The notes under the pieces are model-generated. The model saw only the letters and a list, made by a program, of their open reading frames with translations, was not told the DNA's origin and ran no database searches. The position numbers and the translations under genes were made by a program. From Sporosarcina sp. (lineage in GTDB: Bacteria > Bacillota > Bacilli > Bacillales_A > Planococcaceae), in assembly GCF_029257255.1 (NCBI RefSeq), contig NZ_JARICI010000004.1, forward strand, positions 62,001 to 126,000: DNA of 64,000 bases. The letters run 5' to 3'. Position 1 is the first letter of the stretch. Each line of letters starts with the position of its first letter. Below, piece after piece: positions 6,904 to 63,558 of the stretch.

Positions 6904-8097
6904 ATGGACTTTACATTTACAGATGAACAGAAAATGCTGCGGCAGACGGCCAGGCAGTTTACGGATGCGGAAATCATGCCGCACATCGCAAAATGGGATG
7001 CAGAAGGAAGCTTTGATCCGGCCATTTGGAAGAAGCTTGCGGATCTCGGTTTCCTAGGTGTCTGTATTCCCGAAAAATACGGCGGCAGCGGCATGGATTA
7101 TAATTCATTGGCCATTTTATGCGAGGAACTCGAACGCGGGGATACGGCATTTCGTACAGCGGTGTCCGTGCATATCGGCTTGAATTGCATGACGCTGATG
7201 CAGTGGGGGACGGAAGAGCAAAAACAGAAATATCTCGTTCCGCAAGCGAAAGGTGAGAAAATCGGCGCGTTCGGACTGACAGAACCGGGTGCAGGCTCGG
7301 ACGTATCGGCCATTCAGACGGCTGCTGTACGTGACGAAGACAGCTATATCTTAAACGGGCAAAAAACATGGATCTCGCTCTGCGACTCTGCAGATCATTT
7401 CCTGGTCTTCGCCTATACAGATAAATCAAAGAAACATCACGGGATCAGCGCGTTCATTGTGGAGCGGACGATGCCGGGATTTTCATCTAAAGCCATTAAA
7501 GGAAAGTATGGAATCCGCGCAGGCAATACGGGGGAATTGTTCTTTGAAGATGTCCGCGTACCTGCTGCGAACTTGGTCGGTGAAGAAGGAGAAGGATTCA
7601 AGATTGCGATGGCGGCGCTTGATAACGGACGCTTCACAGTGGCGGCTGGCGCAGTCGGCCTGTTGAAAGCGTGTCTCGAAGCAAGTATTCAGTACGCGAC
7701 AACCCGTGAAACCTTCGGCAAGAAGATCGGTGAACATCAGCTCGTCCAGCAGATGATCGCGAAAATGGAAGCGGGCTATCAGATGAGTCGTCTCCTCGTC
7801 TATCGTGCCGGCGAGTTGAAGAATCGGGGCATCCGCAATACCCGTGAGACGTCACTTGCTAAATGGCAGGCCTGCGATTTTGCCAATCAAGCCGCGGATG
7901 ATGCGGTACAGATTCACGGGGCGTACGGCTATTCCGATGAATACCCTGTCGCCCGCTACTTGCGGAACTCGAAAGCGCCGGTCATCTACGAAGGTACACG
8001 CGAAATCCATACGATCATGCAAGCGGAATATGTACTTGGCAAACGTGCGGATAAACAGTTGAACCGCATGCTGCCGAAGTGGCCGTTTGAGGAATAA
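6904..8097 (+). CDS. Acyl-CoA dehydrogenase, glutaryl-CoA-dehydrogenase-like
   Basis: FAD-dependent acyl-CoA dehydrogenase of 397 residues with the usual N-terminal helical, middle beta and C-terminal helical domains. The FAD-binding signatures FGLTEPGAGSD and KTWIS are present, and Glu363 in IYEGTREIH is the catalytic base. Glu77 and Arg84 in ELERGDTAFR align with the Glu87/Arg94 pair that I recall contacting the gamma-carboxylate in human glutaryl-CoA dehydrogenase; the next residue is Thr rather than Ser. Together with the two upstream genes this supports glutaryl-CoA to crotonyl-CoA conversion in lysine degradation. A GGAGGA site precedes the ATG, 26 bases after the lysine dehydrogenase stop. 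A different short-chain acyl-CoA substrate cannot be excluded. Confidence 0.8.
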   Translation: MDFTFTDEQKMLRQTARQFTDAEIMPHIAKWDAEGSFDPAIWKKLADLGFLGVCIPEKYGGSGMDYNSLAILCEELERGDTAFRTAVSVHIGLNCMTLMQWGTEEQKQKYLVPQAKGEKIGAFGLTEPGAGSDVSAIQTAAVRDEDSYILNGQKTWISLCDSADHFLVFAYTDKSKKHHGISAFIVERTMPGFSSKAIKGKYGIRAGNTGELFFEDVRVPAANLVGEEGEGFKIAMAALDNGRFTVAAGAVGLLKACLEASIQYATTRETFGKKIGEHQLVQQMIAKMEAGYQMSRLLVYRAGELKNRGIRNTRETSLAKWQACDFANQAADDAVQIHGAYGYSDEYPVARYLRNSKAPVIYEGTREIHTIMQAEYVLGKRADKQLNRMLPKWPFEE

Positions 8098-8100
8098 TGA

Positions 8101-8140
8101 AACAGGCTGTCGCGGATTATTTCTGCGGCAGCCTGTTTGC
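8101..8140 (+). terminator. Terminator-like hairpin after the lysine operon
   Basis: Thirteen-base arms AACAGGCTGTCGC and GCGGCAGCCTGTT with an 11-base loop; the T tract is short (TTT), so termination may be incomplete. Confidence 0.6.
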
Positions 8141-8157: not shown

Positions 8158-8343
8158 GGCATGAAAATGTGGCGAATGCGCGCGAAAAAGCAGCGTTTCC
8201 GCGCGAAAAACGTCCCGAAGCGAACCAAAACCACGCGCCGCCGCACCTTTCGCAAATTCCAACGCACCAAACCGCTCCTTCAGCGAACCAAACCGCCGCA
8301 CAGACGCACCATTCCCGCTGTTCCCACGATGAAAAACCCCTGC
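8158..8343 (+). repeat. Class-1 21-bp-period array (locus A1), seven core units
   Basis: Nine-base motifs start exactly every 21 bp. Core units begin at 8179, 8200, 8221, 8242, 8263, 8284 and 8305, with degenerate flanking units at 8158 and 8326. The consensus is CG[CA]-[AG]C[CG]-AAA, for example CGAACCAAA at 8221 and 8284. The fourth unit carries TTT and the seventh ATT in place of AAA. The 12-base linkers share no obvious sequence. The array starts about 20 bp beyond the hairpin closing the lysine operon and reads in the same direction. It runs directly into a class-2 array at 8344. No protein-coding gene is credible here. Confidence 0.9.
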
Positions 8344-8490
8344 TATGAGCGCGGAAGCAGGCGGTATGATCACGAAGGCCGGCAGTATGATCATCTGGCC
8401 GCCTGGTATGATCACGAATCCTGTGGGTATGAGCGCCTGGCGCAGTCCAATGAGCGCTTGAGGTAAAAGTATGATCATCCGAGCAGGCGA
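8344..8490 (+). repeat. Class-2 21-bp-period array (locus A2), seven units
   Basis: TATGATCA or TATGAGCG motifs start at 8344, 8365, 8386, 8407, 8428, 8449 and 8470, an exact 21-bp period over seven units; the sixth has AATGAGCGC. Each motif is followed by 12-13 variable bases. The unit order, writing D for GATC and E for GAGC, is E-D-D-D-E-E-D. The array occupies the gap between two convergent genes. In the frame of the motif it would read as seven-residue repeats, but a stop codon interrupts the sixth unit. Confidence 0.9.
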
Positions 8491-8559: not shown

Positions 8560-9441
8560 TTAAGATCCCACATAATCTCCACCATCCACATGAATCGTCT
8601 GCCCCGTCATATAACTAGAATCCTGTGACGCCAAAAATACATAAGCCGGCGCATTTTCAGCAGGCTGACCGCGGCGCTTCATCGGCGTATCTGCACCATG
8701 CTCAGCGACCGTCTTCGCATCAAAAGTGGCTGGGATGAGCGGTGTCCAAATCGGTCCCGGCGCTACAGCATTCACCCGGATGCCTTGCGCCGACAGATTC
8801 AATGCCAATGAACGCGTAAAGCTGGTGATTGCGCCTTTCGTTGCGGAATAATCCAGCAGGCCGGGCGAGCCGTTATAGGCAGTGATCGAAGACGTATTAA
8901 TGATGCAATCGCCTTTCTTCATATAAGTAACTGCAAGTTTAGACAGATAGAACAGTCCGAAGAAATTTGTCTCGAACGTTTCCTTCAGCTGATCCGCCGT
9001 AATGTCCGAGATAGAGTTTTGAGGGAACTGTTTGCCGGCGTTGTTGACCAAAATATTCAGCCCTCCAAACTCACCGATGACATGCTCAATCAGCTGCCGG
9101 CAATTTTCTTCTTGACTGATATCCATCTGATATTTCTTCGCTTTTCCACCGTAACTTTCAATCAATTCAACCGTTTTATTCGCGTCTTCATCTTCCTGAT
9201 CGGCTAAGTAGGCGATTGCGACATCCGCACCTTCTTTGGCAAACGCCACTGCAACTGCCCGTCCGATTCCGCTGTCACCGCCGGTAATCAGTGCCGTTTT
9301 GCCTTTCAGTTTATCAGCCCCTCTGAAATTGGGGTCATCATAGATTGGCGCGGGATGCATGTCTTCTTCCACACCCGGCTGTTCAGGCTGTGTTTGTCCG
9401 GGTACTTGTTCATCGATTTTCTCGAATTTATCTTTTGACAC
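8560..9441 (-). CDS. SDR-family oxidoreductase (YhxC/YhxD/YdaD group)
   Basis: NAD(P)-dependent short-chain dehydrogenase of 293 residues with the extended N-terminal tail typical of the Bacillus stress-related members (DPNFRGADKLKGK). The cofactor motif TGGDSGIG lies at residues 53-60, NNAG follows, and the Ser-Tyr-Lys catalytic set is in SSITAYNG...DYSATKGA. I chose the GTG at 9441 because GGAGGAGATTTT precedes it; the longer frame to 9525 lacks a ribosome binding site. The natural substrate is unknown. In B. subtilis relatives are general-stress genes under SigB; no SigB promoter was identified here. Confidence 0.85.
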   Translation of the reverse strand: MSKDKFEKIDEQVPGQTQPEQPGVEEDMHPAPIYDDPNFRGADKLKGKTALITGGDSGIGRAVAVAFAKEGADVAIAYLADQEDEDANKTVELIESYGGKAKKYQMDISQEENCRQLIEHVIGEFGGLNILVNNAGKQFPQNSISDITADQLKETFETNFFGLFYLSKLAVTYMKKGDCIINTSSITAYNGSPGLLDYSATKGAITSFTRSLALNLSAQGIRVNAVAPGPIWTPLIPATFDAKTVAEHGADTPMKRRGQPAENAPAYVFLASQDSSYMTGQTIHVDGGDYVGS

Positions 9442-9589
9442 AAAATCTCCTCCAATGCATTTTATTACAAGTATTCCCGTAAAGTTTTTACACAAACATG
9501 GCGTTACGCCAATAAATTTTTCCAAGGACGGCGGTGCGTGTTACAATATAGCAATCAACTATTACATAACAGCTAAGGAGTGCTTCTTC

Positions 9590-10762
9590 ATGAATTTCCA
9601 ACCTTCCAAAAAAATGTCCATATTTCCGCCTGCCATCTTCGGTGAGCTGAAAGCAGCCGCGGCGGCGAAACAAGCGACTGGAGATCAGATCATTGATTTG
9701 AGTCTAGGCAGTCCAGATCTTCCGCCCGATGAAAAAGTCCGTCAAGCGCTATCCGAACAAAGTGCACTGGCGTCCTCATACGGCTATACATTGGGAGGGA
9801 CGAACCGTTTCCATGAAGCAGTCGCTGATTACTATAAACGACGCACTGGCGTCATTGTAGACCCAAAAACAGAAATCTTACAGACAATGGGTTCGCAGGA
9901 AGGCCTCGTTCATTTGCCGCTTGCGTTTTGCAATGAAGGCGATTATGTCTTAACGACGAATCCCGCGTATGTCGCGTATGATGCCGGAATCAAATTAGCA
10001 GGGGCGGTTCCGTACTACATGCCGCTGCTCGCAGAAAACGGCTTCCTTCCCGATCTGAATGAAGTGCCTGAAGACATTGCAAAAAAAGCGAAACTGATCA
10101 TCTTGAACTTGCCGGGCAATCCAGTGCCGGCCATGCCGAATGAAGAGTTTTTCAAAGAAGTCGTGGCGTTTGCAAAGAAATACGAAATTATCGTTCTGCA
10201 TGACGCTGCCTATTCCGAATACTATTTCACAGGCGACCGTCCGGCAAGCTTCCTAACAACACCGGGAGCAAAAGAAGTCGGCATGGAAATCAATTCTTTA
10301 TCAAAAAGCTTCAGTCTTGCAGGCGCGCGAATCGCGTATTTCGTAGGCAACGCACAGATGATCAAAGTACTCCAAGAACTGAAGTCCAATCTCGACTACG
10401 GCACATTCGGTCCGATTCAAGAAGCGGCAGCCGTTGCACTTGACCACGGCGAAGAAATTACAGACCGTCTGCGCGCTGAATTTTCAAAACGTCACCATGC
10501 GTTAATGAGCGGCCTAGCCAAAATTGGATGGGAAACGACGCCGTCTGAAGGCGGAATGTTCGTCTGGGCAAAATATCCGTTCGACATGGACGACAAACAA
10601 TTCGTCTTTGAAGCCATCAAACAAGCCGGCGTTGTCATGGTGCCGGGCAGCATTTTCGGAACTGCGGGAAAAGGCTATGTACGACTCGCTCTTGTGCAGA
10701 AAGTGGAGCTAATCGATCAGGCGGTTGAACAGCTGGGGAAAATGTCAGTTGTGGAAGCGTAA
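9590..10762 (+). CDS. Class I/II PLP-dependent aminotransferase
   Basis: Fold-type I aminotransferase of 390 residues, cytoplasmic. It shows the substrate-cap motif SLGSPDLPP, the cofactor stretch TMGSQEGL, NLPGNPVPA, Asp205 in LHDAAYSE, and the Schiff-base Lys239 in NSLSKSFSLAG. It resembles the group usually annotated as LL-diaminopimelate or aspartate-type aminotransferases, but specificity cannot be read from the sequence. The start at 9590 is set by TAAGGAG ten bases upstream. It lies 1.5 kb beyond the lysine-degradation operon, which lacks the 2-aminoadipate aminotransferase that the route needs, so that role is possible but unproven. Confidence 0.85.
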   Translation: MNFQPSKKMSIFPPAIFGELKAAAAAKQATGDQIIDLSLGSPDLPPDEKVRQALSEQSALASSYGYTLGGTNRFHEAVADYYKRRTGVIVDPKTEILQTMGSQEGLVHLPLAFCNEGDYVLTTNPAYVAYDAGIKLAGAVPYYMPLLAENGFLPDLNEVPEDIAKKAKLIILNLPGNPVPAMPNEEFFKEVVAFAKKYEIIVLHDAAYSEYYFTGDRPASFLTTPGAKEVGMEINSLSKSFSLAGARIAYFVGNAQMIKVLQELKSNLDYGTFGPIQEAAAVALDHGEEITDRLRAEFSKRHHALMSGLAKIGWETTPSEGGMFVWAKYPFDMDDKQFVFEAIKQAGVVMVPGSIFGTAGKGYVRLALVQKVELIDQAVEQLGKMSVVEA

Positions 10763-10769
10763 AAAAGTG

Positions 10770-10818
10770 AAAAAGCTGTACGAAACGTCATTCTCCTGAC
10801 ATCTCGTGCAGCTTTTTT
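10770..10818 (+). terminator. Rho-independent terminator of the aminotransferase gene
   Basis: Long stem AAAAAGCTGTACGA against TCGTGCAGCTTTTTT with an internal secondary pairing (ACGTCA/TGACAT). Confidence 0.85.
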
Positions 10819-10846: not shown

Positions 10847-10993
10847 CGCACCAAAAACGTGTCCTGCCGCACCAAAAAGCCCCGGATCCAAGCCAAAAAC
10901 AGCAAGTGCCGCACATTTACAGAGCTACACCGAACCAAAAACCTTGTCCCGCGCGCCAAACTGAATGATTCGCGCACCATTGCCGCCCCCTCC
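10847..10993 (+). repeat. Class-1 21-bp-period array (locus B), seven units
   Basis: Units begin at 10847, 10868, 10889, 10910, 10931, 10952 and 10973. The first two read CGCACCAAA, the third CAAGCCAAA, the fourth CGCACATTT, the fifth CGAACCAAA, the sixth CGCGCCAAA and the seventh CGCACCATT. The positions of the TTT unit (fourth) and ATT unit (seventh) are the same as in locus A1, while the linkers differ. It starts 29 bp beyond the aminotransferase terminator and reads in the same direction. Confidence 0.9.
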
Positions 10994-11331: not shown

Positions 11332-11901
11332 GTGGATCGCAGACAAGAAATTTTGCTGGCAGCAGAAAAATCATTCTCTTTATTCGGCTACAAAGCCACT
11401 ACGATGGATCAAGTCGCTAAAATCGCCAATGTCGGAAAAGGAACAATCTATACATTCTTCTCAAATAAAGAAGAACTGTTTCACGCGATTGTTCGACAGA
11501 TGATCGAAGAAATGCGGCGTGTATCCGAAGAATGTACGATAGAGGGGGCTTCATTCGAAGTCAACGCACATGCAAGGCTCATGCAGCTGTTGAAATTCCG
11601 TGAGACACACCAGCTGAACATCAAACTGATCGAAGAAGAAAAAGAACTTCGGACACCGATGGTCAGTGAAGTGCTGGCATCAATCGAGCAGGAAATCATC
11701 GGATTTATCCGGCAGAAAATTGAGCGGGGCATTGCAAAAGGTGAGCTCAAACAGTGCGACAGCGAACTCGTTGCTTATCTATTATTTAAATCCTATCTGG
11801 CACTTGTCGTTGACTGGTCGAAGACACATGACCGGCAGCTGACAGAAGAAGAAATCGCTCAATTATTAAGCGATACGATTTTTTCCAGTCTCTTAGTCTG
11901 A
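11332..11901 (+). CDS. yhgD: TetR/AcrR-family transcriptional regulator (YhgD-like)
   Basis: Dimeric repressor of 189 residues. The N-terminal helix-turn-helix is typical of the family (FGYKATTMDQVAKIANV followed by GKGTIYTFFSNKEELF, about residues 18-50), and the rest is the helical ligand-binding domain. The start is GTG at 11332 with GAGGTGAAG just upstream. The next gene is yhgE, the same pairing as yhgD-yhgE in B. subtilis, so the likely target is the YhgE/Pip membrane protein. Two similar palindromes, one before each gene, support this. A terminator overlaps the stop codon, so yhgE may be expressed mainly from its own promoter. Confidence 0.85.
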   Translation: MDRRQEILLAAEKSFSLFGYKATTMDQVAKIANVGKGTIYTFFSNKEELFHAIVRQMIEEMRRVSEECTIEGASFEVNAHARLMQLLKFRETHQLNIKLIEEEKELRTPMVSEVLASIEQEIIGFIRQKIERGIAKGELKQCDSELVAYLLFKSYLALVVDWSKTHDRQLTEEEIAQLLSDTIFSSLLV

Positions 11902-43343: not shown

Positions 43344-44438
43344 ATGGTTGGCATATACGGTCATATTACTGAATACATGGGGACGGCTTATACAGGTAAA
43401 GGAATCATGCACAAATATGAGGAGCTGATGGAGGAGTCAAGAAAGACGATATTCCTCAAATGTCTGCCTACGCATTCACTGTCGCAGGTGCTGAATGATT
43501 TGGCGGTGTACTTCGTCAAAAGAGGGCACCCTGTCGACCGCTTCATGAATCCTGGACATGTGGATAAAACAGATGCTATTTATGTAAATGAACTCAAGCT
43601 CTTTATCCTGCAGGCATCGCATCCGATTTCATTCGAACCGATGGATTTAGGGGGACGGCATAAGGTGTTTTGTTTCTACGATGTCTATCATCAGGAACAT
43701 CTGTACCAGCAGCATGAAGAAGTGGGCGACTTGCTAAAGCAGGCGAAGTACAGCTTCAGAAAGTCTCTGTCTGCCTTAGAAAGTGCTAAAGAAATTCACG
43801 ATGAATGGGAAGTAGTTAATATTCAACGGATGGATTGGGAAAGGCACACTGCCTTGATAGAAAAATTGAAAGAAGAAATATTTGGGACGATTGAATTGGC
43901 AAAAACGGCGAACATTTCTCATCGAATTATAGGTTCGTTGTCCGCTGGCAGTGCACATGATTTTATTCCGTCGATCACTAAACGAATGAGGAAGCGAATG
44001 TTAATTAAAGGATTGCCGGGAACAGGGAAATCCACGATGATGCGTGCGATTGGAGAAGAGGCAGAGCGAAGGGGGATTGACGTACTGTACGGCTGGTGTG
44101 GACTCGATCCTTCCAGTATTGATCTAGTCCTCTTCCCTGAACTTTCCATTTGTTTATTCGATTCGACTCAACCGCATGTTTATGATCCTGAAGGTCCACG
44201 TGATGAGTTAGTGGACATCGTACCTCTTTGCGCCGAAGATCAACGAGCAGAGGAAAAAATCAAAGAAATAGCACATCGTTACCGAGAAGCAATCGCAGAC
44301 GCCTCAGGCTACATGCAGACAGCAATGAAAGCCCAAAACACCGCCCGTTTGCAAATGGATCGCTCATTGAATGTGGAAGTATTTGAAAAGAAACTGCAGT
44401 CGCTGTATGCACTTATTAAATCAATGGATGGGAATTAA
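43344..44438 (+). CDS. PRK06851-type P-loop ATPase with degenerate N-terminal duplicate
   Basis: A 364-residue soluble protein made of two similar NTPase-like halves. The C-terminal half has an intact Walker A (IKGLPGTGKSTMMRAIG, about residues 219-235) followed by RRGIDVLYGWCGLDPSSIDL, FPELSICLFD and TQPHVYDPEGP. The N-terminal half repeats this order (FLKCLPTHSLSQVL, KRGHPVDRF, VNELKLFILQ, SHPISFEP), but its P-loop has lost the GxGKS/T residues. This matches the family I know as PRK06851, of unknown function. The ATG at 43344 directly abuts AAAGG; no better start was found. Confidence 0.75.
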   Translation: MVGIYGHITEYMGTAYTGKGIMHKYEELMEESRKTIFLKCLPTHSLSQVLNDLAVYFVKRGHPVDRFMNPGHVDKTDAIYVNELKLFILQASHPISFEPMDLGGRHKVFCFYDVYHQEHLYQQHEEVGDLLKQAKYSFRKSLSALESAKEIHDEWEVVNIQRMDWERHTALIEKLKEEIFGTIELAKTANISHRIIGSLSAGSAHDFIPSITKRMRKRMLIKGLPGTGKSTMMRAIGEEAERRGIDVLYGWCGLDPSSIDLVLFPELSICLFDSTQPHVYDPEGPRDELVDIVPLCAEDQRAEEKIKEIAHRYREAIADASGYMQTAMKAQNTARLQMDRSLNVEVFEKKLQSLYALIKSMDGN

Positions 44439-44448
44439 GGAACTGATT

Positions 44449-44595
44449 TTTGCTTGCTGAATGATCATAGAACATTGCCGCGTGATCATAAACTTTGTTC
44501 ATGCGATCATACCGCAGCCCCAGCCGCTCATAGAGGTTCCGCATGCGCTCATACATGCCTCCAACTTGATCATACACGCAACGTTCGTGATCATA
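44449..44595 (-). repeat. Class-2 21-bp-period array (locus C), seven units
   Basis: On the plus strand TGATCATA-like motifs begin at 44462, 44483, 44504, 44525, 44546, 44567 and 44588, an exact 21-bp period. Read on the minus strand the units are TATGATCA, TATGATCA, TATGAGCG, TATGAGCG, TATGATCG, TATGATCA, TATGATCA. The array begins about 40 bp beyond the bshB2 terminator, reads in the direction of bshB2 transcription, and fills the gap between two convergent genes. Confidence 0.92.
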
Positions 44596-44633
44596 GAGAA
44601 AATTCTAAGCAGGATAGTCATAGCCCATCAATA

Positions 44634-44664
44634 AAAAAACCGCAGACAACTCTGCGGTTTTTAG
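44634..44664. terminator. Bidirectional terminator at the bshB2 end
   Basis: AAAAACCGCAGA/TCTGCGGTTTTT with a four-base loop. Confidence 0.9.
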
Positions 44665-45332
44665 TCGAATTTATGAATATAAAAGTCTTCATAGTGGAGC
44701 CAGTTCAATGCTTCCTGATCGTGATCAGCCCATCGCTTCTCCATATCAGGCAGCATCCAGATCGTCTGAGAGGCATGTGCCCGCAATGCAGCAATTTTCT
44801 TATCCGCAACTTCAGGTAAATGGTGAATAACATCCGGCTTGCCGATTGTCTTGACCGTGTCATTATCGAATGCCTTCAAATAGACCAGTGGACGCTTGGC
44901 TTCTGGAATTTTTCCAACCGCTTCTAGCACTGCCACGCCTGTCGCATTATGGTCAGGGTGTACAGCAAGCGTCGGATGGAACGTAATTACTAATGAAGGA
45001 TTCAATTCTTCAATTAAATCAGTCATCATTTTTACGAGATTTTCAGGATCTTCGAATTCTACCGTTTTATCGCGTAAGCCCATCATGCGCAAATCCGTCA
45101 GTCCCATTGCCTCACAAGCATCAAGCAGTTCTTGCTTACGGAACTGCGGCAATGTTTCACGGTTTGCAAAAGGTGGATTGCCTAAGTTTCGTCCCATTTC
45201 ACCAAGTGTTAAGCATGCATAGGTTACAGGTACGCCCATTTCGATATATTTAGAAATCGTTGCGCCAAGCCCGAATGTTTCGTCGTCGGGGTGAGGGAAA
45301 ACGACTAATACATGTCTTTCATTTCGTATCAT
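44661..45332 (-). CDS. bshB2: Bacillithiol biosynthesis deacetylase BshB2
   Basis: Zinc-dependent LmbE/PIG-L-family deacetylase of 223 residues that removes the acetyl group from GlcNAc-malate to give GlcN-malate, the second step in bacillithiol synthesis. The metal site is visible as HPDDE (residues 14-18) and HPDH. It follows a yojF gene with 17 bases between them, the same order as yojF-yojG in B. subtilis. The start is ATG 45332, with GGGAG upstream. bshB2 is the secondary deacetylase in some Bacillus; whether a bshB1 exists elsewhere cannot be seen. Confidence 0.9.
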   Translation of the reverse strand: MIRNERHVLVVFPHPDDETFGLGATISKYIEMGVPVTYACLTLGEMGRNLGNPPFANRETLPQFRKQELLDACEAMGLTDLRMMGLRDKTVEFEDPENLVKMMTDLIEELNPSLVITFHPTLAVHPDHNATGVAVLEAVGKIPEAKRPLVYLKAFDNDTVKTIGKPDVIHHLPEVADKKIAALRAHASQTIWMLPDMEKRWADHDQEALNWLHYEDFYIHKFD

Positions 45333-45349
45333 CAAAAAAATCTCCCTTC

Positions 45350-50969: not shown

Positions 50970-51032
50970 TATGATCGAGGGCGGAGTACTTATGAGCGCT
51001 CGCGAGAGGTTTATGATCATATGGGGCAAATG
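50970..51032 (+). repeat. Class-2 21-bp-period array (locus D1), three clear units
   Basis: TATGATCG at 50970, TATGAGCG at 50991 and TATGATCA at 51012, exactly 21 bp apart. Two weaker motifs (TATGTCCT at 50926, TATGACAG at 50946) precede them with spacings of 20 and 24 bp, as if older units had picked up small indels. It faces the inverted class-1 array D2, and the last unit overlaps D2's distal end by two bases. Confidence 0.8.
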
Positions 51033-51155
51033 AAAGATTTGGAATAGCGCGTGCAATGTATGCTTTGGCGCGGTCAACAGCCACTTACGCTCGGTATCGC
51101 TGTGTTAAGGTGCGTTCAGCCACTTGTTTGGTGCGGCCAAACTCGACTTCGTGCT
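51031..51155 (-). repeat. Class-1 21-bp-period array (locus D2), six recognisable units
   Basis: On the minus strand, units run 51135-51115 (CGCACCAAA), 51114-51094 (CGCACCTTA), 51093-51073 (CGAGCGTAA), 51072-51052 (CGCGCCAAA) and 51051-51031 (CGCGCTATT). A preceding unit at 51155-51136 reads AGCACGAAG and is one base short. The TTA and ATT variants fall in the same relative order as the fourth and seventh units of loci A1 and B. The array starts about 32 bp beyond the hemQ terminator and reads in the hemQ direction. An in-frame TAA in one unit argues against translation. Confidence 0.85.
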
Positions 51156-51186
51156 ATTGTTCCCGGCAAATCTTACAAATGAACGC

Positions 51187-51213
51187 AAAAAAGCCGCGAA
51201 ATGAATCGCGGCT
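51187..51213 (-). terminator. Terminator of hemQ
   Basis: On the minus strand AGCCGCGA/TCGCGGCT with an eight-base loop, then six T residues. Confidence 0.9.
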
Positions 51214-51222
51214 GAGAATTTA

Positions 51223-51972
51223 TTATACTTCGAAGAATGCTCCACGTTTGTCGTCTTCCAAAATTGTTCCAATGAAGAATGATCCGAACACGCCGTAACG
51301 TGCGCTTACTTCATCAAAACGCATTTCATAAACAAGCTTCTTGAATTGCAGTATGTCGTCTGAGAAGAGCGTAACGCCCCATTCGTAATCGTCAAAACCG
51401 ACAGATCCCGAAATGATTTGCTTTACTTTTCCAGCGTATCCGCGGCCGATCATGCCGTGACTGCGCATCAGGCTTTTGCGGTCATCCATGTTGAGCATGT
51501 ACCAGTTATCATCGCCTTCGCGCTTCTTGTCCATCGGGTAGAAACAGACATATTGGCTGCGTGGAAGTTCAGGGTACAGGCGTCCGCGTACATAAGGGTT
51601 CTGATATGGATCTTCGTCGGATTCGCCTGCGAGGTAATTGGACAGTTCCACAACGGAAACGTAAGAGTATGCCGGAATTGTGTAGTCTGCGATCGTCAAT
51701 TTATTGAATTCAGCTTCAAGTTGCTGTAATTCATCCATTGTCGGACGCAAAGTCATCAGCATAAAGTCTGCTTTTTGACCAACCACTGTATAAAATGCAT
51801 GGCTACCTGTCTTCGCTTCATCTGCTTTTTGAAGGCGTTCCAAGTAGTTTAGGAATTCATTGACTGCTGCTTGACGTTCTTCTTTGGAAATCAGTTTCCA
51901 AGAGGCCCAGTCCATTGTACGGAAATCATGAAGTACGTACCAACCATCTAATGTAATCGCTGCTTCGTTCAC
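51223..51972 (-). CDS. hemQ: Coproheme decarboxylase HemQ
   Basis: A 249-residue chlorite-dismutase-fold enzyme that converts Fe-coproporphyrin III to haem b by two peroxide-dependent decarboxylations, the last step of the coproporphyrin-dependent haem pathway of Gram-positive bacteria. Tyr145 in CFYPMDKKR matches the catalytic tyrosine, and His172 in [13 protein letters not shown] the proximal ligand. The start is GTG with AAGGAG nine bases upstream. It is divergent from pta, as ywfI and pta are arranged in B. subtilis. Confidence 0.93.
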
Positions 51973-63352: not shown

Positions 63353-63382
63353 GAAACACGATTACAAATTACATATATTTCA

Positions 63383-63558
63383 TAAGGTTCTCTAATCAAA
63401 ATAGAGATGAAAAGGGAAATCGGTTCAATGCCGATGCGGTCCCGCCACTGTAAGTGCTAAGCACGAGCCAGGTACCTGCCTTAATGGAATTCAGTTCCGC
63501 AACAGCCTACGAGGATAGGTAAAGTGGAGAAGCCTCTCTTGGACTTCATCCGCCTAAT
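63383..63558 (+). promoter_or_regulatory. Cobalamin riboswitch
   Basis: The leader has the sequence landmarks of the adenosylcobalamin riboswitch: a first paired region around AAGGTTCTCTAATC, then GATGAAAAGGGAAATCGGT, ATGCCGATGCGGTCCCGCCA, the B12 box GCCACTGTAAG (63444-63454) and GAGCCAGGTACCTGCC. It lies directly upstream of an intrinsic terminator and of a BtuF-like gene, so cobalamin binding should favour termination and shut off B12 uptake. Confidence 0.92.

Follow-up and report, generated by a model that had tools for sequence, protein, structure and literature searches.

Ordered seven-unit repeat arrays at gene ends of Sporosarcina, candidate sites for a DNA-binding protein

The window, i.e. 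the whole stretch of DNA analysed here, comprises 64,000 nucleotides of a Sporosarcina genome (hereafter G000) that was compared with the genomes of three Sporosarcina relatives, G028, G048 and G056. NCBI places the genus in the family Caryophanaceae. Several spacers of the window contain arrays of a short motif that belong to two classes and lie close to terminator-like hairpins. The features are, by position:

8103..8138, plus strand: terminator-like hairpin and T-run after the stop codon of ORF 6904-8097 and ahead of the next array, seen in the sequence.
8179..8325, plus strand: class-1 array of seven units CG[CA][AG]C[CG]-WWW with period 21, last motif ending at 8313; model E-value 1.7e-21.
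8344..8490, plus strand: class-2 array of seven units [TA]ATGA[TG]C[AG][CT] with period 21, adjoining the previous array in one spacer.
10771..10818, plus strand: terminator-like hairpin with T-run directly ahead of the array at 10847, seen in the sequence.
10847..10993, plus strand: class-1 array of seven units, last motif ending at 10981; model E-value 1.7e-21.
44461..44595, minus strand: class-2 array of seven units in a convergent spacer that holds class 1 in G028, G048 and G056.
44633..44662, both strands: bidirectional terminator-like hairpin beside the class-2 array, also found in G028, G048 and G056.
50970..51020, plus strand: three class-2 units, TATGATCGA, TATGAGCGC and TATGATCAT, under the four-unit threshold, in one spacer with the decayed class-1 array.
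51043..51177, minus strand: decayed class-1 array in which five units (51135 to 51043) are clear and two (51177, 51156) eroded; E-value 3.2e-9.
51187..51213, minus strand: terminator-like hairpin of the minus-strand ORF 51223-51972, ahead of the decayed array, seen in the sequence.

A search of the window with Rfam 15 at gathering score gave no match at the arrays, its only hits being a tRNA and a cobalamin riboswitch at 63368-63498 (RF00174, 76.8 bits).

The first-pass annotation of this DNA had described three copies of the class-1 array. Two are clean: the arrays at 8179 and 10847 keep an exact 21-bp spacing across seven units, their fourth unit ends in TTT (CGCACCTTT and CGCACATTT, respectively) and their seventh, CGCACCATT in both, in ATT. 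The third is decayed. Its clear units at 51135, 51114, 51093, 51072 and 51051 read CGCACCAAA, CGCACCTTA, CGAGCGTAA, CGCGCCAAA and CGCGCTATT, and those at 51177 and 51156 are eroded to TGTAAGATT and TAGCACGAA. This array spans 51177-51043; limits of 51155-51031, as first proposed, miss the first unit. Once it is numbered from 51177 the claimed agreement among the copies, TTT/TTT/TTA in unit 4 and ATT in unit 7 of all three, is indeed found. The class-1 arrays of the window are not due to chance. A weight matrix made only from units of other genomes gave best seven-unit plus-strand scores of 86.1 (8179) and 82.6 (10847) and, at 51177-51043, a best minus-strand score of 19.2, compared with a maximum of -23.5 in 120 first-order random strands. 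With a hand-typed matrix of seed units and periods from 17 to 25 only period 21 scored (78.2 vs at most 3.3 for the others), and a motif-free scan for seven-unit arrays at periods of 15-30 gave matches at 21 only.

The element is not an isolated one in three copies. The pattern CGMACCAAA-N12-CGMACCAAA, two units at 21 bp, has 18 matches in G000 and none when reversed. A sequence-only model was made from 22 arrays, two of the window and the remainder found by two- or three-unit patterns. Scanning G000 for further copies with this model yielded many, at least 44 places at an E-value of 1 or less and at least 30 of them below 1e-7; these strong places fall on many contigs, and one 13-unit array accounts for two of them. 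At 1e-6 or less the three congeners have at least 70, 39 and 60 matches, the last figure being that of G056. All place counts are lower bounds, since 150 first-look candidates were scored per genome, out of 433, 511, 503 and 560. Of the 169 matches in the three relatives, the counts given below cover 30 loci, 80 stretches and the loci found earlier by pattern, and arrays scoring under 40 were left out of the collection. Among genomes screened with the two-unit class-1 pattern it occurs in 4 of 61 of the genus, G000 included, and in 3 of 200 of the family, namely G000 and two of another genus.

The anatomy of a unit was determined from 24 arrays. Bases 1-9, the motif, carry 0.9-2.0 bits each, bases 11-19 at most 0.11 and bases 10, 20 and 21 between 0.34 and 0.47. 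The class-1 motif CG[CA][AG]CCAAA is asymmetric and has no palindrome. Most often the arrays span seven units (94 of 141 in all; 23/28 in G000, 39/52 in G028, 17/31 in G048 and 15/30 in G056), and the other arrays collected span 4-6 or 8-32 units; the model has seven unit columns, so that the collection leans towards seven units in that order. In the collected arrays the spacing is 21 bp in 170 of 172 cases in G000 and in 300 of 314 in G028. Conservation falls off outside the arrays; what remains, in 55 arrays, is 0.4 bits at each of the two bases preceding unit 1, a smear of T some 22-36 bp upstream of that unit and two C downstream.

The units are also ordered, as seen in arrays of exactly seven units (22 of 28 in G000, 33 of 52 in G028, 17 of 31 in G048, 12 of 30 in G056). 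Base 3 is A in unit 3 (18/22) and unit 6 (15/22) of the G000 arrays, against 2-4 in other units, and T-tails mark unit 4 (19/22) and unit 7 (14/22), against 0-2 elsewhere. The same order is present in G028, with base-3 A in 24 and 20 of 33 and T-tails in 25 and 18 of 33. In neither genome (22 and 33 arrays) did any of 1000 shuffles reach the observed mutual information for base 3 and the T-tail. In G048 the T-tail sits mainly in unit 7 (13/17; unit 4, 7/17), and in G056 the order is weak, 30-35 of 1000 shuffles being as strong for both features. The order was already present in the 24 arrays picked before the model existed, with A at base 3 of unit 3 in 20 and T at base 7 of unit 4 in 14. Base 3 reads C C A C C A C along the array, which may point to an older super-repeat of three units (63 bp). 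Taken with the preferred span, the diverged linkers and the roughly 30 strong places, the ordered units bear out the first-pass view of a defined cassette rather than a simple tandem expansion.

Motifs and linkers evolve at different rates. In eight orthologous arrays of G000 and G028 the motifs differ at 55 of 495 positions (0.111) and the linkers at 221 of 564 (0.392), figures from the pairs with a clean register, three of 11 with motif divergences of 0.27-0.52 having been dropped, a choice that favours conservation. Third codon positions of the flanking ORFs differ at 0.278 between the same genomes. Motif bases 2, 5, 7 and 8 change at 0-4% in the eight pairs. With all 11 pairs the differences are 116/648 in motifs and 320/732 in linkers, and with all 31 orthologous pairs among the four species 494/1719 and 1034/1920. 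Selection thus acts on the motif at the DNA level. Non-orthologous arrays within a genome likewise agree in motif (identity 0.80 in G000, 0.76 in G028) and little in linker (0.34-0.35, where composition predicts 0.26). Both checks proposed at first pass, one for other copies in the genome and one of unit order and of linker against motif divergence, came out in its favour.

The neighbouring TATGATCAC arrays are of the same kind and, on the other strand, show a related motif. In the window these class-2 arrays read TATGA[TG]C[AG]C in seven units, at 8344 (plus) and from 44595 to 44461 (minus). On the other strand the motif is [TC]G[AC]TCATA and shares YGM-C--A with class 1; G056 carries an intermediate, CGATCCAAA. 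When the plus strand is scored with the class-1 matrix from other genomes, the class-2 array at 44462 comes third (-12.4 vs a random maximum of -23.5). Only the class-2 variant TGATCA is self-complementary. Thirteen distinct class-2 arrays were found in G000, eight with seven listed units and five with five or six. Class-2 steps are either six of 21 or 21,21,21,21,20,21 (L010 and L017 in G000, L098 in G028, L102 in G048), and one array, L014, has a last step of 22. Several other congeners carry longer class-2 arrays, of up to 40 units, that are homogenised, step by 20 bp or by mixed distances and have the look of an ordinary tandem expansion. The regular 21-bp step that binding on one DNA face would need, a point raised at first pass, is kept in almost all spacings of the arrays collected from G000; 20-bp or mixed 20/21 spacing in related species means that exact 21-bp phasing is not universal.

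The class can differ between orthologous spacers. That between ORFs 43344-44438 and 44661-45335 holds class 2 on the minus strand in G000; the orthologous spacers of G028, G048 and G056 hold class 1 on the plus strand, with 8, 7 and 7 units, at similar spacer length (about 207-222 bp) and with the same bidirectional terminator across species. Past ORF 6904-8097 there are class 1 and class 2 in G000, class 2 on the plus strand in G028 and class 2 on the minus strand in G048. In one spacer that holds a class-1 array in G028, G056 retains two class-2 units. A clean empty site was looked for behind the aminotransferase-like ORF 9359-10762, where synteny with the relatives examined breaks down. Twelve syntenic spacers, not every one comparable in all four genomes, have an array of at least four units in at least one species; three have it in two or more species and nine in one, so single arrays are often dispensable. 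Array turnover is brisk, and the kind of site stays the same.

Placement was scored for the arrays of G000 and G028, of which 35 lie in convergent, 36 in tandem and four in divergent ORF spacers (5 of 80 unassigned). The window's spacers of at least 50 bp number 5, 26 and 11, respectively (Fisher p 1e-4), a small background from one window with mechanical ORF calls and with array-bearing spacers included; without a length limit it becomes 11, 32 and 11, a weaker contrast, and at 150 bp or more 3, 14 and 7. In tandem spacers a median of 79-89 bp separates the array from the stop codon before it. A terminator-like hairpin on the same strand was found within 130 bp 5' of 46 of 79 arrays, compared with 8 of 79 random places in the same loci; the other side of the array has one on the opposite strand in 30 of 79, and both sides in 15. 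Most arrays stand at the 3' ends of genes, with a preference for convergent spacers and often beyond a terminator.

We consider it somewhat probable (about 0.55), judging from sequence comparison, that the cassettes are non-coding arrays of sites for a putative sequence-specific DNA-binding protein acting at gene ends. One site, CG[CA][AG]CCAAA in class 1 or [TC]G[AC]TCATA on the other strand in class 2, would take about one helical turn. Sites recurring every two turns, a helical phase that we infer from the spacing, would place seven bound subunits side by side on one face of about 147 bp of DNA, perhaps with one subunit per site and each touching its neighbours, which would allow cooperativity. 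Such a reader would act on double-stranded DNA, tolerate almost any linker, need the two-turn step and, in this clade, prefer seven sites. A protein-covered stretch at gene 3' ends could then act as an insulator, a roadblock or a topological anchor, with a possible part in chromosome organisation, and would leave promoters undisturbed.

Of the other explanations, the one that survives best, possible although in our estimate unlikely, is a dispersed repeat with no host function, REP-like or non-autonomous and mobile, in which an ancestral seven-unit cassette was copied to tolerated gene-end sites by an enzyme that recognises the motif. Gene ends are where harmless insertions survive, the presence of arrays differs between close species, and IS200-type transposases (PF01797) occur in G000, G028 and G048. 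In addition, linkers of equal index at different loci show a slight resemblance (bases 11-19, 0.297 vs 0.268 shuffled, sd 0.0036, in G000; 0.306 vs 0.276 in G028), from which it follows that the cassettes probably go back to one remote ancestor and that part of the unit order may be inherited, not selected. The claim that motifs and unit identities are kept while linkers have diverged beyond recognition consequently holds in its first part and, in its second, has to allow for this faint similarity. No recent copying is seen, however, in the linkers of non-orthologous exact seven-unit arrays, whose identity is at most 0.54 in G000 and 0.58 in G028, and motifs are constrained even in orthologous copies that have not moved. 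Six spacers inspected by eye showed no target duplication or clean insertion, and PF01797 was not found in G056 despite its 60 class-1 matches. That one motif stands amid unrelated linkers at non-orthologous loci points to a reader acting in trans and away from copying in the recent past.

Minisatellite dynamics with a preferred unit of about 20-21 bp, i.e. expansion by slippage or unequal exchange followed by decay, with the conserved columns as replication-favoured parts, would explain the long homogenised arrays of other species, some of which consist of 40-42-bp dimers. We regard this as an improbable origin for the arrays of the present clade, since these favour seven units, with identities in a set order, and have diverged linkers, one motif recurs at many loci with different linkers, and motif and count are conserved across loci without sequence copying. 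The distribution of periods speaks in the same direction, being concentrated at 19-21 bp in Sporosarcina. In random 20-kb stretches, arrays of at least six units at 20 ± 1 bp were found at 10 places in 32 stretches of Sporosarcina, at five in 24 stretches of other genera of the family (two more being runs of N) and at none in 17 stretches of other families. Other periods in the 32 Sporosarcina stretches came to one array each at 17, 18 and 22, none at 23-34 and one to three at 35-37 and 39. Two arrays in L319 and two in L344 lie inside open frames of at least 100 aa, hence not all arrays are shown to be non-coding.

A number of side observations were made. Further arrays with a period of 20-21 bp have other motifs, TTATCACCGCC and TATCAGCGGTTG among them; they were seen in L303 (G006) from 2222 on, in L313 (G054) at 11402 and, within one 20-kb stretch, at 1334, 9115 and 11766 of L319 (G040). 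L343, from a genome (G110) of a different genus in the family, has seven units of CGCACCAAA type (7.2 copies by TRF) at about 1880-2040, followed by an ORF that resembles lspA in its first residues. Four loci of one Chitinophagales MAG, of another phylum (L064, L071, L075, L095), have 6-9 units containing CGCACCAAA at 21 bp, those of L064 and L071 outside ORFs of at least 100 aa; coincidence, convergence or contamination may account for them. L153:1007-1142 and L159:1744-1815 carry another kind of dispersed repeat (about 70-130 bp, 74-90% alike), which they share with several loci of S. cascadiensis and S. aquimarina.

An action of the arrays as RNA after read-through, as a sponge for protein or sRNA or as a backup terminator, appears very unlikely. 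It would agree with the same-strand hairpin 5' of 46 of 79 arrays, as opposed to 8 of 79 random places, but the direction of arrays relative to transcription in the tandem spacers of the four genomes is even, 34 the same and 33 opposite (4:8, 16:8, 4:9 and 10:8 per genome), and flexible RNA does not need exact spacing. Folding of eight class-1 arrays gave no structure signal (z from -0.8 to 1.6), and among the 12 folds made in all, one of two class-2 arrays reached a z of about -2.1 on both strands. Together, the lack of an overall strand preference and of class-1 RNA structure argue for double-stranded DNA. The same 34 vs 33 rules out that arrays are always oriented as the upstream gene. Finally, the idea that the 21-bp unit encodes a heptad-repeat peptide is largely refuted. 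In its favour, 21 bp make seven codons, and plus frame 0 has a deficit of stops in G000 (9 observed vs 17.8 expected, sd 2.9) and G028 (17 vs 26.5, sd 3.4). Against it, there is no such deficit in G048 or G056, stops interrupt this frame in 39 of 84 arrays, linkers diverge by 0.340, 0.447 and 0.388 at its three codon positions and, unlike coding DNA, not most at the third, and 20-bp periods elsewhere break any frame.

The range of class 2 is wider than one species. Its two-unit pattern has matches in 33 of 68 Sporosarcina genomes, G000 included; YGMTCATA-N13-YGMTCATA has them in 67 of 150 genomes, representing 13 of 17 genera, of an order sample in which all rows are of this family, with five or more matches in genomes of six genera. 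The reversed control ATACTMGY-N13-ATACTMGY was almost always zero, save for 39+62, 55+21, 61+41 and 8+7 matches in four genomes. These four, G113, G182, G217 and G158, have 15 to 102 matches of the reversed pattern each and possibly carry an array class of their own. All six genomes with five or more matches to the class-2 pattern in a class-wide sample of 299 belong to this family; outside it one to three matches occur in 25 of 271 genomes, a small excess over the 6 of 271 of the reversed control.

The binding-site reading can be extended to a family-wide chromatin element, an extension that we regard as speculative and rather unlikely as a whole. A putative protein of Sporosarcina and its family would sit on phased gene-end sites, in this clade seven over 147 bp, and would read the identities of units 3/6 and 4/7 as part of a fixed complex. 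The motif would have drifted between lineages, from [TC]G[AC]TCATA to CG[CA][AG]CCAAA, and either type of array could replace the other at a spacer.

Among the closest known systems are the REP sequences and BIMEs of enterobacteria and others, described (PMC2817692) as dispersed extragenic elements in many copies per genome, forming composite clusters with unrelated sequences between units; the same source gives proposed roles in chromosome organisation and termination, and binding of DNA gyrase by BIME-2. The Sporosarcina arrays are also extragenic, dispersed and present in tens of copies; they differ in that their units are asymmetric direct repeats with no palindrome or stem, have a 21-bp pitch and mostly number seven. 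REP elements go with a cognate RAYT transposase, an IS200-like enzyme; PF01797, an assignment at the level of IS200-type enzymes, is present in three of the four genomes and was not found in G056. Clusters of Lrp/AsnC sites, in the words of an archaeal review (PMC2995911), comprise imperfect sites on one DNA face with centres two or three helical turns apart and wrap DNA. The array spacing of two helical turns (21 bp in 170/172 G000 spacings) resembles this, whereas the sites of Lrp are (semi-)palindromes within control regions, and the Sporosarcina motifs are asymmetric and lie mostly at gene ends. The palindromic site that defines both BIME and Lrp is absent here, though Lrp-type proteins are a precedent for two-turn spacing on one face with wrapping, and BIMEs for gene-end repeats that bind gyrase and affect termination.

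Iterons and plasmid centromere repeats are direct repeats of about 20-22 bp in helical phase that one protein binds. The present arrays share such repeats and phase; they are, however, dispersed over the chromosome, unlike iterons, which lie at a replication origin beside a rep gene, and conserve 9 of 21 bp. STAR elements of staphylococci resemble these arrays in that a short conserved motif recurs between genes, its copies separated by variable sequence; we know of no fixed helical pitch or unit order in them. CRISPR arrays have near-identical repeats of about 23-50 bp and spacers of similar length, unlike the 9-bp motifs, 12-bp linkers and position-specific motif variants seen here. From a simple minisatellite the arrays differ by their diverged linkers and the span of seven in 94 of 141, although those of other species look minisatellite-like. 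Our search of the open-access literature found no ordered, helically phased cassette with a preferred number of seven sites, in agreement with the initial impression that no element of this form had been described. We place the arrays among the dispersed intergenic repeats.

Dispersed repeats at gene ends, such as REP/BIME, are already known, but an ordered, phased cassette with a preference for seven sites, selected at dozens of loci, was not found in the open-access literature searched. If a protein reads the arrays, a large bacterial family would have a system for chromosome organisation or insulation that has not been seen before. Motif, count and phase each predict something about binding and are directly testable, and the spacer with class 2 in G000 and class 1 in three relatives offers a natural swap experiment.
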